Virus record (IMG/VR): IMGVR_UViG_3300030450_000888
Span: 1-22,677 of that record
Length of the DNA: 22,677 nt
Reading direction: 5' to 3' (one strand)
Source: a virus
Part shown: piece by piece, positions 20,446-22,677 of the stretch
Layout: the number at the start of each line of letters is the position of its first letter
Numbering within the stretch: position 1 is the first letter of the stretch
The notes under the pieces: generated by a model
What the model was told of the DNA's origin: nothing
What the model saw: the letters and a program-made list of their open reading frames with translations, nothing else
Databases searched by the model: none
Made by a program: the position numbers and the translations under genes

Positions 20446-21615
20446 TTAGTTGAAAGCTGCTGGCTTTGTAGTTGTTCCTGCGAACAATTCTACACAAGCT
20501 GCTGGATTCACAAAATCTGCTCCCATAGCCATGCGTCCTAGGATGACATCGCCTTGGTATACCACTGAGACATCCCCAGAAGTTACCTGTACCTGTGGGC
20601 CGATTGTTTCTACTACACCTGCAGCTTCTCTTTGGAAGATTAGCCCGCATGTGTTTGCAAAGTTAGAGGCAGCACCGTAGTTTTGGCGAGGGCCATAGTT
20701 GTTACCTGTAACTGTTGTAGCTGTTTCGATACCTTCAGATACGAATGAACCTGTGTTGCCAGGATCTACTGTATCAAGGTCAGTTGCAGCTGAAGCACCA
20801 CTTGAAGGTGCATACTTAGTACCGTACTTAGAGAAGAATGGTACGTTCATTGATTTGTAGATTTGAATACCTGCAATTTCAATTACTCCGTTACCAGACT
20901 GAAGTGCTGTACCTTGTACGTCTCTGTTGATTAAACCGTTTGAACCAGCACCTTGTATAAGTGCGTAGTACTGTCTAGGGTTAAGTACGGCAACCCGACC
21001 ATCATCAGAAACTCCTTTTTCGTCAAGAGCTGCAGCAGCATCATAAAATGCTGTTACGAGCTTAGTATCATCAAGAGCATCATCAGCGTTAGAACCAGCT
21101 CCCACTTGGATTTGTGTACCACCTGGCTCAACGAAGTTGGTTAGTGATACTGGAGAAGCCTGTCTAGCACCTTTAGCAATAGCTCTGAAGATTAATCTGT
21201 CATACTTCTGTGCAAGAGCATAACCGATCTTCTTAGAAATTTCTCCTCTTAACTCGTAGTGAGAAAGTGTCTCATCTAGCTCATAGACAAATGCACTAGA
21301 GATGAGTAGGTCATCTACTGTGATTGTCTTTTCTGCTACTGGAGGAGTTTTGTCAGAGTTTCCTAATATACTGTTGCCAGGAGTGTGGTATTCCGCACTT
21401 GTACGTCCAGTATAGATGAACTGTAAACTCTTACCGTTGGTGAGTGTACGCTTCATAACGAGATCTCTTGCGATTGTCTCTCTTTGGAAGCCAGTAAACA
21501 TCTCACCGCTGAACAACTTTAAATATAAATCTCTGTTGTTTGTTGCGTTTGTCGCTGTGTTTATCCTACCCAGAAAGGTTTGTGAAGCAGGATTGTTTGT
21601 TGACTGTTGTGCCAT
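20446..21615 (-). CDS. gp10: Major capsid protein (T7 gp10-like)
   Basis: A 389-aa capsid protein of the T7 HK97-fold type (T7 gp10A is 344 aa). Recognisable parts are LYLKLFSGEMFTGFQRETIA (N-arm), SLQFIYTGRTSAEYHTPGN (E-loop region), ISSAFVYELDETLSHYELRG (spine helix), RVAVLNPRQYYALIQ and IAGIQIYKSMNVPF (central domain), and GDVILGRMAMGADFVNPAAC (C-terminal strand). It is strongly similar in style to cyanopodovirus capsid proteins. Codon use has more GC-ending codons than the neighbouring fibre genes, consistent with high expression. No Shine-Dalgarno precedes the ATG (upstream is CCCTACAAAATA). No scaffold gene is seen immediately upstream in this window. The gene is followed by the terminator. 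Confidence 0.97.
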   Translation of the reverse strand: MAQQSTNNPASQTFLGRINTATNATNNRDLYLKLFSGEMFTGFQRETIARDLVMKRTLTNGKSLQFIYTGRTSAEYHTPGNSILGNSDKTPPVAEKTITVDDLLISSAFVYELDETLSHYELRGEISKKIGYALAQKYDRLIFRAIAKGARQASPVSLTNFVEPGGTQIQVGAGSNADDALDDTKLVTAFYDAAAALDEKGVSDDGRVAVLNPRQYYALIQGAGSNGLINRDVQGTALQSGNGVIEIAGIQIYKSMNVPFFSKYGTKYAPSSGASAATDLDTVDPGNTGSFVSEGIETATTVTGNNYGPRQNYGAASNFANTCGLIFQREAAGVVETIGPQVQVTSGDVSVVYQGDVILGRMAMGADFVNPAACVELFAGTTTKPAAFN

Positions 21616-21641
21616 TATTTTGTAGGGTTATATGTATCGTC

Positions 21642-21653
21642 TCTAGATCTAGA
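21642..21653. repeat. 12-bp perfect palindrome TCTAGATCTAGA
   Basis: The palindrome is centred about 30 bp upstream of the capsid start codon and overlaps the likely transcription start of the candidate promoter. It could be an operator or a weak hairpin. Confidence 0.5.
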
Positions 21654-21682
21654 ATTATAGGAATCTTAATTGTATCAGCTAA
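21654..21682 (-). promoter_or_regulatory. Candidate sigma-70-type promoter for the capsid gene
   Basis: A consensus TATAAT at 21659-21654 lies 17 nt after TTAGCT (3 of 6 -35 matches). The expected start of transcription is about 21647, giving a leader of roughly 32 nt. TATAAT is easily found by chance in AT-rich DNA, and a phage-RNAP promoter could exist here unrecognised. Confidence 0.35.
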
Positions 21683-21710
21683 GACTCAAAGCTGCCTGTG
21701 GTCTATCCCA

Positions 21711-21779
21711 CCGTCTAGACGGCATTAGGTGTCTCCGTAGAGGCTAATACCAAATGTAGAGGGAGGCATTGCACCTCCC
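21711..21779 (-). other. Hairpin cluster in the capsid leader
   Basis: Three hairpins lie in tandem on the minus strand: GGGAGG-7 nt-CCTCCC (21779-21761), GTATTAG/CTAATGC with an inner CTC-TACG-GAG (21750-21722), and the palindrome CCGTCTAGACGG (21722-21711). None has a U-tract, so they are more likely RNA-processing or stability elements than strong terminators. No protein-coding frame is supported in the leader between the 43-aa gene and the capsid gene. Confidence 0.5.
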
Positions 21780-21786
21780 ATGTCGC

Positions 21787-21918
21787 TTAACGAACTACTT
21801 TATGAAAATGTAAATTTGGACGTTTCTCAGTCATGTGCGTTTTAATGTGGCTTAATTCTAAAGCACCCATTATAAGAGCTAGACCGATTATACCGAACCA
21901 AATTGCTCGATCATTCAT
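21787..21918 (-). CDS. 43-aa single-helix membrane protein downstream of riboswitch peptide
   Basis: Starting at ATG 21918 the product is MNDRAIWFGIIGLALIMGAL followed by ELSHIKTHMTEK and a basic His-containing tail ending HFHKVVR. One hydrophobic helix (residues about 6-22) would span a membrane. The start overlaps the stop of the 17-aa peptide as ATGA, and no Shine-Dalgarno precedes it, so translation probably depends on the peptide gene and hence on the riboswitch. The open frame extends further upstream to 22014, but that extension runs through the riboswitch and is very unlikely to be coding. Function is unknown; it does not carry the hli motif. Confidence 0.6.
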   Translation of the reverse strand: MNDRAIWFGIIGLALIMGALELSHIKTHMTEKRPNLHFHKVVR

Positions 21919-21968
21919 TTGATAATTTTGGTGTAAGCAACGCCACGATATACGTAAGTTACTGTCAT
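21915..21968 (-). CDS. 17-aa Downstream-peptide, YRGVxY motif
   Basis: The micro-ORF encodes MTVTYVYRGVAYTKIIK. It sits exactly where the Downstream-peptide RNA family is known to have a short conserved reading frame (about 17-100 aa), and has a good ribosome binding site, GGGAG at 21979-21975, 6 nt from the ATG. The TYxYRGVxY core resembles small cyanobacterial proteins of the DUF4278 kind (YRGVxY near the N-terminus). The gene is coupled to the 43-aa gene by ATGA. The cellular role of such peptides is not known to me. Confidence 0.75.
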   Translation of the reverse strand: MTVTYVYRGVAYTKIIK

Positions 21969-21983
21969 GGTAAACTCCCATAT

Positions 21984-22034
21984 ACCAAAGCCCCGTTCCA
22001 TGCTTTGGTGTCATGCGTCCCGAAGGATGAACGG
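21984..22034 (-). promoter_or_regulatory. Glutamine riboswitch, Downstream-peptide type
   Basis: On the minus strand: P1 5' CCGTTC (22034-22029), CAT-type junction, P2 TCC-TTCG-GGA (22027-22018) with a UUCG tetraloop, junction CGCATGA, a loop segment ACCAAAGC (22009-22002), then the P1 3' strand GAACGG (21998-21993), then GCTTTGGT (21991-21984), which pairs perfectly (8 bp) with the loop segment to form a pseudoknot. The CGTTCATCC...GGGACG...GGAACGG frame is the signature of the cyanobacterial glnA/Downstream-peptide glutamine aptamers, and the 3' pseudoknot is that of the Downstream-peptide class. The pseudoknot ends 4 nt before the GGGAG ribosome binding site, suggesting control of translation, although no rho-independent terminator form is evident. 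Confidence 0.85.
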
Positions 22035-22049
22035 ACGTGGCGTTTGTGG

Positions 22050-22078
22050 ATTATAATATGCCAGGAATTATTTGTCCT
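22050..22078 (-). promoter_or_regulatory. Candidate promoter inside the end of hli, driving the riboswitch transcript
   Basis: AGGACA (22078-22073, 4 of 6 -35 matches) and a perfect TATAAT (22055-22050) are separated by 17 nt. The hli stop codon TAA lies inside the -10 box. The predicted start is about 22043-22045, just ahead of the riboswitch. Confidence 0.55.
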
Positions 22079-22185
22079 GTTGTTAGGTATGTACCTACAG
22101 CTATCACGAAACCTAGCATTGCTAGTCTACCGTTTAGCTCTTCAGCTACATGCCATTTGTCGCCATCGTGGTTGTGGTGTGTCAT
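22051..22185 (-). CDS. hli: High-light-inducible protein (Hli/HLIP)
   Basis: A 44-aa protein with the full chlorophyll-binding signature ExxNGRxAMxGF: Glu15, Asn18, Gly19, Arg20, Ala22, Met23, Gly25 and Phe26, inside a single transmembrane helix, followed by the TGQIIPG end typical of phage and multi-copy Prochlorococcus Hlis. Hlis sit in the thylakoid membrane, bind chlorophyll and carotenoid as dimers or heteromers, and protect photosystem II during stress; phage copies are thought to keep photosynthesis running during infection. The N-terminus is unusually His-rich (His3, His4, His6, His12). The ATG overlaps the stop of the upstream 78-aa gene as ATGA, and only a weak GAAG-like site is present, so coupling is likely. 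No psbA is seen in this window. Confidence 0.95.
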   Translation of the reverse strand: MTHHNHDGDKWHVAEELNGRLAMLGFVIAVGTYLTTGQIIPGIL

Positions 22186-22418
22186 TTTTTTCTTCGTTTA
22201 TGGTTGTAGTTAATTCTACGTGAACTTGTTTTAGATTTTCTAAATCTTGTTTTTTCACCGCTAGACATCTCTTTGGTAGTCTTTGGTGTTTTGGATGAGA
22301 CTCTACGAGATGGACGACAAGCGGGGTAGCCTTTACGCTTTTCGCCTTTCTGTCTGCCACATGGCTTACCAGTTTTTACGTCCACCCACTTCTCTTTAAA
22401 CCATCTTCTTAAACTCAT
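22182..22418 (-). CDS. 78-aa basic Cys-containing protein, conserved in cyanophages
   Basis: The protein starts MSLRRWFKEKWVDVKTGKPC, continues with CGRxKGExRxGYPACRPS, then a Ser/Thr/Lys/Arg-rich tail ending KRRKK. It is very basic, with two Cys residues (20 and 34) in the CGR and ACRPS motifs. I recognise this pattern as a small protein that recurs in cyanophages and other marine phages, but no function is established; nucleic-acid or metal binding is a guess from charge and cysteines. A clear ribosome binding site GAGG (22428-22425) lies 6 nt before the ATG. The gene overlaps its neighbours on both sides by ATGA. Confidence 0.8.
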   Translation of the reverse strand: MSLRRWFKEKWVDVKTGKPCGRQKGEKRKGYPACRPSRRVSSKTPKTTKEMSSGEKTRFRKSKTSSRRINYNHKRRKK

Positions 22419-22576
22419 CTTTTTCCTCTAGTATATCCTTTAGCGGTCTTTCTTTTACCACCAGATTTTACTTGTCCTTTACATACCTTTACACCATAAG
22501 CATTAGCATATGCTGAAGGGTATACCTTGAACTTTCTTTTCGCAGCTGCTTTACCACGGGCACATAGTTTAGCCAT
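22415..22576 (-). CDS. 53-aa basic protein, KVYPSAYANAY motif
   Basis: MAKLCARGKAAAKRKFKVYP is followed by SAYANAYGVKVCKGQVK and a Lys/Arg/Gly tail (GGKRKTAKGYTRGKR). The LC-x-RGKAAAK...YPSAYANAY...VCKG pattern is one I associate with small conserved proteins of cyanophages and other marine phages; the pair of cysteines (Cys5 and Cys32) brackets the motif. The function is unknown. The start codon shares a base with the stop of the 18-aa gene (TAATG) and GGAGG lies 12 nt upstream, a little far. The stop overlaps the next start as ATGA. Confidence 0.8.
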   Translation of the reverse strand: MAKLCARGKAAAKRKFKVYPSAYANAYGVKVCKGQVKSGGKRKTAKGYTRGKR

Positions 22577-22632
22577 TACTTTTTCTTGCCTCCGTGTTTA
22601 CAGCCACACTTAGATCCTTTCTTGTGTGCCAT
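22576..22632 (-). CDS. 18-aa Lys/Gly-rich micro-protein with CxCxH
   Basis: The reading frame encodes MAHKKGSKCGCKHGGKKK: half of the residues are basic, with a compact C-x-C-x-H that could bind a metal ion. It is framed exactly by neighbours (TAATG on both sides), which is the main reason to call it a gene. An in-frame ATG at 22644 would add MEML and make it 22 aa. No convincing ribosome binding site is seen. Similar tiny K/C/G/H peptides are found in cyanophages, but I know of no function. Confidence 0.55.
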   Translation of the reverse strand: MAHKKGSKCGCKHGGKKK

Positions 22633-22677
22633 TAGCATTTCCATCTACGTAGTGCCAACGCTTTACGGGTTGGCTTT
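22632..22677 (-). CDS. C-terminal end of an upstream gene
   Basis: The last codons before a TAA at 22634-22632 read KPTRKALALRRWKC. The frame is open to the window edge and its stop overlaps the next start as TAATG, the junction style of the whole cluster. Too little is visible to identify the product, which is basic. Confidence 0.45.
   Translation of the reverse strand, partial: KPTRKALALRRWKC

Follow-up and report, generated by a model that had tools for sequence, protein, structure and literature searches.

What does the RNA between hli and the major capsid gene of a T7-like cyanophage control, and to which signal does it respond? The window, a 22.7-kb viral contig analysed over its full 22,677 nucleotides, carries the late genes of such a phage on its minus strand. 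Phages of this T7-like group, which infect Prochlorococcus and Synechococcus, occur in very large numbers. A preliminary description of this DNA placed here a glutamine riboswitch governing a micropeptide and a coupled membrane protein in a phage late region. The late setting is confirmed by the capsid, tail tube, nozzle and internal virion protein genes, all on the same strand (table 1). The locus is likely to be a phage type 2 glutamine riboswitch, serving as a translational ON switch for a 17-aa YRGxxY micropeptide and, through termination–reinitiation, for a 43-aa protein. We infer that glutamine is bound, that its binding turns expression on and that the peptide is translated.

The stop codon of hli (22053–22051) lies 14 nt upstream of the aptamer. 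Besides hli and the small basic protein gene, a second small gene matches phrog_27331. GACACC repeats are poor candidates for phage promoters: 19 matches were found against 9.6 expected, mostly with three mismatches.

Table 1. Features of the locus in window coordinates, with the evidence for each.
Feature	Position	Strand	Evidence
Small basic protein, upstream of hli	22182–22418		DUF5872, PF19197, 2.9e-14
hli, high-light-inducible protein, 44 aa	22051–22185	−	phrog_178, E 2.9e-18; ORF list
Glutamine-II (Downstream-peptide, type 2 glutamine) riboswitch aptamer	21984–22036	−	RF01704; covariation
P1 helix, 3 bp, UUCG loop (22027–22025 / 22020–22018)	22018–22027	−	covariation, 4/4 pairs
P2 helix, perfect 8 bp (22009–22002 / 21991–21984)	21984–22009	−	covariation, 8/8 pairs
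Pseudoknot helix (CGUUC 22033–22029 / GAACG 21998–21994)	21994–22033	−	complementarity
Predicted OFF hairpin (expression platform)	21942–21991	−	folding, synonymous-shuffle, swap and covariation tests
Shine–Dalgarno (SD) sequence GGGAG, 6 nt before ATG at 21968	21975–21979	−	sequence
17-aa micropeptide MTVTYVYRGVAYTKIIK plus stop codon	21915–21968	−	YRGxxY ORF after phage aptamers; codon statistics
43-aa single-helix membrane protein, ATGA overlap with micropeptide stop	21787–21918	−	same −4 offset in relatives
Major capsid protein, T7 gp10-like, next large gene downstream	20446–21615	−	PF21703, E 8.2e-71

The aptamer and its occurrence in cyanopodoviruses

The Downstream-peptide glutamine aptamer proposed earlier is recovered by its covariance model. 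RF01704 matches the minus strand at 22036–21984 over its full length (50.0 bits against a gathering threshold of 33, E 1.3e-9), the sole gathering-level Rfam match in 22.7 kb. Glutamine-I (glnA, RF01739) gave no cmscan match over 21600–22677, even at E up to 10. Three invariant blocks are present: CGUUCA, CGCA and UGGAACGG. The layout first described, a UUCG-capped short helix, a long helix and a pseudoknot, stands with two corrections. Crystal-structure naming makes the short UUCG helix P1 and the long helix P2, the reverse of the names originally given, and the pseudoknot strand GAACG sits within the P2 loop, not at the 3′ end.

Covariation was assessed in 40 diverse phage relatives. All 12 pairs of P1 and P2 changed on both sides; because they covary, the check named in the preliminary description, pairing of 22009–22002 with 21991–21984, came out in its favour at all eight pairs. 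Over the whole structure 95.3% of cells are paired, against 33–55% for structures shifted by one to three columns. The covariation score is 0.444, compared with 0.152 in shuffles, and on each of five covariation measures all 500 shuffles fall below the value observed. The pseudoknot strands are complementary in 40 of 40 relatives, but they do not vary and the search pattern itself fixes them, so that covariation speaks for the short UUCG helix and the 8-bp helix and is silent on the pseudoknot. Judged by sequence and covariation, the aptamer is a true member of the Glutamine-II class, in a phage-specific variant. Pooled scans yielded at least 164 distinct phage elements, and an SD-like match is present in 156 of these 164.

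An independent scan by capsid protein collected 47 cyanopodovirus loci with at least 900 nt upstream, and the riboswitch unit precedes the major capsid gene in 43 of them. At 39 loci the aptamer pattern lies within 1.6 kb of the capsid gene; Rfam recovered one further aptamer (L267, 40.3 bits), and L289, L291 and L292 hold it in the gene-containing form described below. The pattern is absent from L235, L255, L256 and L257, all closely related to the window; of these, L235 and L255 were read out and have other ORFs where the unit would be. Among isolates, P-SSP7, P-SSP2, P-GSP1, 9515-10a and NATL1A-7 score 48–59 bits with RF01704, and DNA similarity places the unit in P-SSP3, P-SSP6, P-SSP10, NATL2A-133 and others. 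Annotated isolate records have no feature under nearly all unit matches, including that of P-SSP7. The capsid operon seems almost always to include this unit, which has gone unannotated even in this model phage. Gene end and aptamer overlap in S-TIP28 (L538:1810–2033): the stop codon of STIP28_40 lies inside the P1 stem, and a 37-aa YRG peptide is annotated in this phage.

The micropeptide

A 17-codon ORF with a YRGVxY core, 6 nt past a GGGAG site, had been proposed, and all of these elements are found on the minus strand. Its association with the aptamer is drawn from the aptamer-only, capsid-protein and insert-pattern scans; one further scan that required the peptide was not used. Scanning viral contigs by the aptamer pattern alone gave at least 87 elements with a proper P2. 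Among the matches listed, a Y[RK]GxxY ORF follows 84 of 87 aptamers and the other three reach the contig end, so that every complete phage aptamer listed (84/84) has its YRGxxY ORF. The phage peptides listed are 13–60 aa long (median 19) and 83 of 84 contain a single YRGxxY motif. In cyanobacteria, peptides that follow this aptamer mostly have two or three YRG copies, with a median of 34 and a minimum of 33 aa. The second Y of the motif is invariant in 65 of 65 distinct phage cores, with both Tyr codons in use, and the position following YRG is V or I in 58 of the 65.

Longer phage peptides match DUF4278 (PF14105, 7.3e-7), as do a host 33-mer and a host 63-mer. Two relatives fall on either side of the 25.3-bit cut-off, a 34-aa peptide at 20.2 and a 35-aa peptide at 29.9 bits; a 21-aa phage variant has no DUF4278 match, and the 17-mer is below the length limit of the profile search. 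This pattern supports a translated peptide of the DUF4278/YRG kind, a class to which the 17-mer is assigned through its relatives, being itself too short for a membership test. The peptide is probably a minimal mimic of host glutamine-induced DUF4278/YRG proteins, made late in infection when nitrogen is sufficient. The earlier proposal that the phage tunes both products to the nitrogen state of its host is a reasonable deduction from the ligand.

The predicted masking hairpin and the proposed switch

In the predicted OFF hairpin, the 3′ arm of P2 and the SD leader pair with micropeptide codons through YRG and enclose both SD and AUG. The window hairpin has a folding energy of −14.9 kcal/mol (z −2.61 against dinucleotide shuffles), and 2.9% of synonymous versions fold equally well. 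In shuffle and swap tests, which do not fully remove the relatedness of the sequences, the leader–codon hairpin has a z of −2.60 against synonymous shuffles for phages with short peptides (n=19) and −2.97 for those with long ones (n=26), compared with −0.19 in hosts (n=23); own partners in short-class phages pair at −13.99 kcal/mol versus −10.80 when swapped, with 0 of 5000 permutations as good. The average loss on swapping leaders and coding parts within the short class is thus 3.2 kcal/mol. In the long-peptide class, the duplex measure of the swap test is not significant, and the evidence for the hairpin is weaker in this class. The base after the leader GGUA pairs with the base before the UAU (Tyr) codon in 73 of 79 sequences (T–A 55, C–G 15, G–C 2, A–T 1; the others are two G/T wobbles and four mismatches). 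By these comparisons and by predicted folding, a conserved masking hairpin is shown to be specific to phages and absent from hosts.

The base of the hairpin uses the 3′ arm of P2, and P2 and hairpin are therefore mutually exclusive. Opening the SD–AUG region of the window is predicted to cost 12.2 kcal/mol if the P2 arm is free but 4.7 if it is occupied, on secondary-structure energies that leave the pseudoknot, co-transcriptional folding and ribosomes out of account; the corresponding means are 7.7 and 4.1 in phages and 4.7 and 3.3 in hosts. Masking that depends on the P2 arm is stronger than expected from synonymous versions by 2.44 (se 0.54) in the short class and 1.34 (se 0.36) in the long class, against 0.12 (se 0.26) in hosts. 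The predicted ON and OFF states are nearly equal in energy. When the full-length window RNA is folded, P2 forms even without ligand, and unconstrained folding gives the masking hairpin in both apo and holo models. Published probing of the aptamer, quoted in PMC6698751, found P1 and P2 formed without glutamine, a result that counts against the mechanism proposed below and would point to the pseudoknot as the sole driver of switching. A local GGUA...UACC hairpin around the window SD was considered as the platform and dropped, as it is not conserved.

The Glutamine-II riboswitch of Prochlorococcus is described as an ON switch that probably works at the level of translation (PMC6316151; PMC6698751). 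Reading the phage element as an ON switch follows from this reported host behaviour together with the lower predicted opening cost when the P2 arm is occupied. The proposed mechanism is as follows. (i) Without glutamine, the P2 3′ arm GCUUUGGU and the SD leader would pair with the codons ...ACUUACGUAUAUCGUGGC, which specify T-Y-V-Y-R-G, and this pairing would bury SD and AUG. (ii) Bound glutamine would stabilize the pseudoknot, so that the 3′ arm is retained by P2. (iii) The masking hairpin would be deprived of its base, and ribosomes could start on the micropeptide. (iv) The 43-aa protein would be read by termination–reinitiation from the micropeptide. Control of the 17-aa ORF, as first claimed, is well supported by the anatomy of the locus and the predicted SD-masking hairpin. 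If the expression platform lies in the codons of the very peptide under its control, this would be one explanation of why the 17-codon ORF is conserved at the nucleotide level. If the proposal is true, phages would sense host glutamine late in infection and respond by making a peptide similar to the YRG proteins that glutamine induces in the host. It is directly testable in P-SSP7 and its MED4 host system.

Downstream genes, alternative readings and known systems

The ATGA-coupled one-helix ORF of 43 aa is present as described (21918–21787). It has no SD of its own, keeps the −4 offset (ATGA) wherever it follows the peptide in relatives, and is under purifying selection (pN 0.108, pS 0.320, n=13); the protein has no Pfam or PHROG match. 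Its control by the riboswitch, the other half of the original claim, is supported by the overlap, the missing SD and the constant offset, but the gene is also retained in relatives that have exchanged the unit for something else. L235 and L255 have other ORFs in front of it, which indicates coupling to whichever ORF precedes it and not specifically to the riboswitch. Riboswitch control through coupling is plausible for this gene but is not its defining property. In the same two relatives (L235:3290–3765, L255:2300–2780), the 43-aa gene and the overlap region remain after replacement of the riboswitch–peptide unit, which suggests cassette exchange. Many relatives have a small ORF whose start is a few nt from the peptide stop, and most other phages have no gene between the peptide and the capsid leader element. 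Cyanopodoviruses such as L087, L271, L279, L286 and L414 have a Phage_OMP gene (PF24653, E 3.1e-44 for L271) directly after the micropeptide; it encodes a secreted beta-barrel, and between it and the capsid gene come a small acidic ORF and then a one-helix protein. The peptide stop in L012 appeared to abut the capsid start, but the ATG at that point belongs to a 44-aa ORF, and the capsid gene is 301 nt further downstream of the peptide.

Three other readings need to be weighed. The micropeptide might be a mere translational relay that gates the downstream gene, the 43-aa gene here and a beta-barrel or small ORF elsewhere. The ATGA overlap, the lack of an SD before the 43-aa gene and the small ORFs close to the peptide stop in many relatives all fit such a relay, but most loci have no gene for it to gate, and the 43-aa gene outlives the riboswitch. 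The peptide itself is also kept: YRGxxY is conserved, including the second Y, which lies outside the masking hairpin, and the same motif occurs in longer host proteins. We consider this reading unlikely. Slightly less likely still is that the micropeptide is regulated while its leader–codon hairpin is incidental, the switch following a host scheme in which the pseudoknot competes with some other SD-masking structure. Host Glutamine-II units lack the hairpin, yet one is reported to switch (PMC6316151). The long-class swap result also fits an incidental hairpin. An incidental hairpin is hard to reconcile with its strong excess stability over synonymous shuffles in phages, with leader–codon covariation through all four Watson–Crick pair types and with the overlap of its base and the P2 arm.

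Far less probable than either is that the aptamer is an inert relic of host DNA with no function in the phage. It can be lost, as in L235 and L255 with their other ORFs, but compensatory P1 and P2 changes across diverse phages largely refute this reading; the presence of the unit at 43 of 47 capsid loci, the phage-specific hairpin and the one-repeat phage peptides, which form a class distinct from host peptides, likewise tell against it.

A glutamine-responsive ON switch for the micropeptide remains the preferred reading, and some relatives of the window carry the aptamer in another form. S-SBP1 had been taken for a riboswitch-less phage; this was rejected when its aptamer was found split by gp32, which lies within P1 (CGTTCA TCTATG...ATAGA CGCATGA). 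A pattern scan for P1 inserts gave at least 95 distinct elements, none of them in the window itself; examples are L412:2167–2376 (S-SBP1), L289:1885–2096 and elements in L416–L534. Among the elements listed, all 95 hold in the P1 loop a 53–60-aa ORF of one family (phrog_628, 4.4e-15 for one member). The ORF starts 3–9 nt after CGTTCA without a visible SD and, in 91 of the 95 listed, ends exactly at CGCA-TGA/TAA, where the core GACGCAUGA encodes Asp-Ala-stop (GAC GCA TGA/TAA). It is under purifying selection (pN 0.185, pS 0.629, 52 sequences). The P1 arms pair at 5.10 of 6 positions versus 4.07 when shuffled (maximum 4.58 in 1000 shuffles). A YRG peptide lies downstream of 92 of the 95 gene-containing aptamers listed, and 75 of the 95 are upstream of the capsid gene on the same strand.

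A ribosome starting the inner gene would occupy the pseudoknot strand, which makes opposite control of the two products an attractive idea. The split aptamer may tentatively be seen as a two-way toggle: once formed, the pseudoknot would block the inner-gene start and free the ribosome site of the micropeptide, so that low glutamine would switch on the inner gene and high glutamine the micropeptide. The window would then hold the gene-less form of the same device, with peptide codons as the switch. We regard this as possible but somewhat doubtful. The gene-in-aptamer variant would be an unusual regulatory design.

The locus resembles Glutamine-II (RF01704) of Prochlorococcus and marine Synechococcus in aptamer sequence, P1–P2–pseudoknot architecture and the short YRG ORF downstream (PMC2864571). 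Unlike host units, which lie among nitrogen genes, phage units stand in the capsid operon, have one YRGxxY repeat and pair their leader with peptide codons. Yfr6 of Prochlorococcus, likewise a short RNA, joins this aptamer to a YRG peptide that is small and conserved (PMC2518516, PMC2864571), but its peptide has 33 aa and two YRG repeats, and it is encoded on the host chromosome with no leader–codon hairpin. The YRGxxY core is shared with DUF4278 proteins, including the N-terminal part of the GS inactivating factor IF17; this domain has 57 positions, more than twice the length of the 17-aa peptide. Phage-borne glutamine riboswitches are also found in T4-like cyanophages and marine myophages (glnA type; Melnitz tmRNA), but these belong to the Glutamine-I class, to other phage families and to other regulated genes (PMC9964418, PMC9004378). 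Already known are the aptamer class, its glutamine ligand, ORFs of 17–100 aa and the glutamine riboswitches of T4-like cyanophages (PMC2864571, PMC6316151, PMC9964418, PMC9004378). A 2018 review restricted the Downstream-peptide aptamer to marine picocyanobacteria (PMC6316151). A literature search, whose coverage left out most subscription journals, found no description of Glutamine-II in cyanopodoviruses. The first description of the Downstream-peptide motif reportedly also mentioned one cyanophage. Four features appear to be new: the near-constant location of the unit ahead of the capsid gene, a peptide class with a single repeat, a platform built from codons, and the aptamer with a gene inside it.

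The capsid gene itself starts without a visible Shine–Dalgarno sequence (ACCCTACAAAATAATGG, window 21615–21640, minus strand). Between the small genes and the capsid gene lies a conserved structured RNA that is absent from Rfam (window 21798–21698, minus strand). No tRNA or tmRNA was found at the capsid leader in the window, and among the loci scanned only NATL1A-7 has a true tRNA-Gly at this place. The hairpin of the leader RNA resembles a tRNA T-arm with acceptor-like flanks in some phages (in L002, a true tRNA-Gly) and has the loop CACCTCAGAGTCGGA in others. The block after it reads TTGG...GCC-hairpin-GAUACC...GCCGUCUAGACGGUGGGAUAGACCAC, and the hairpin in this block covaries.
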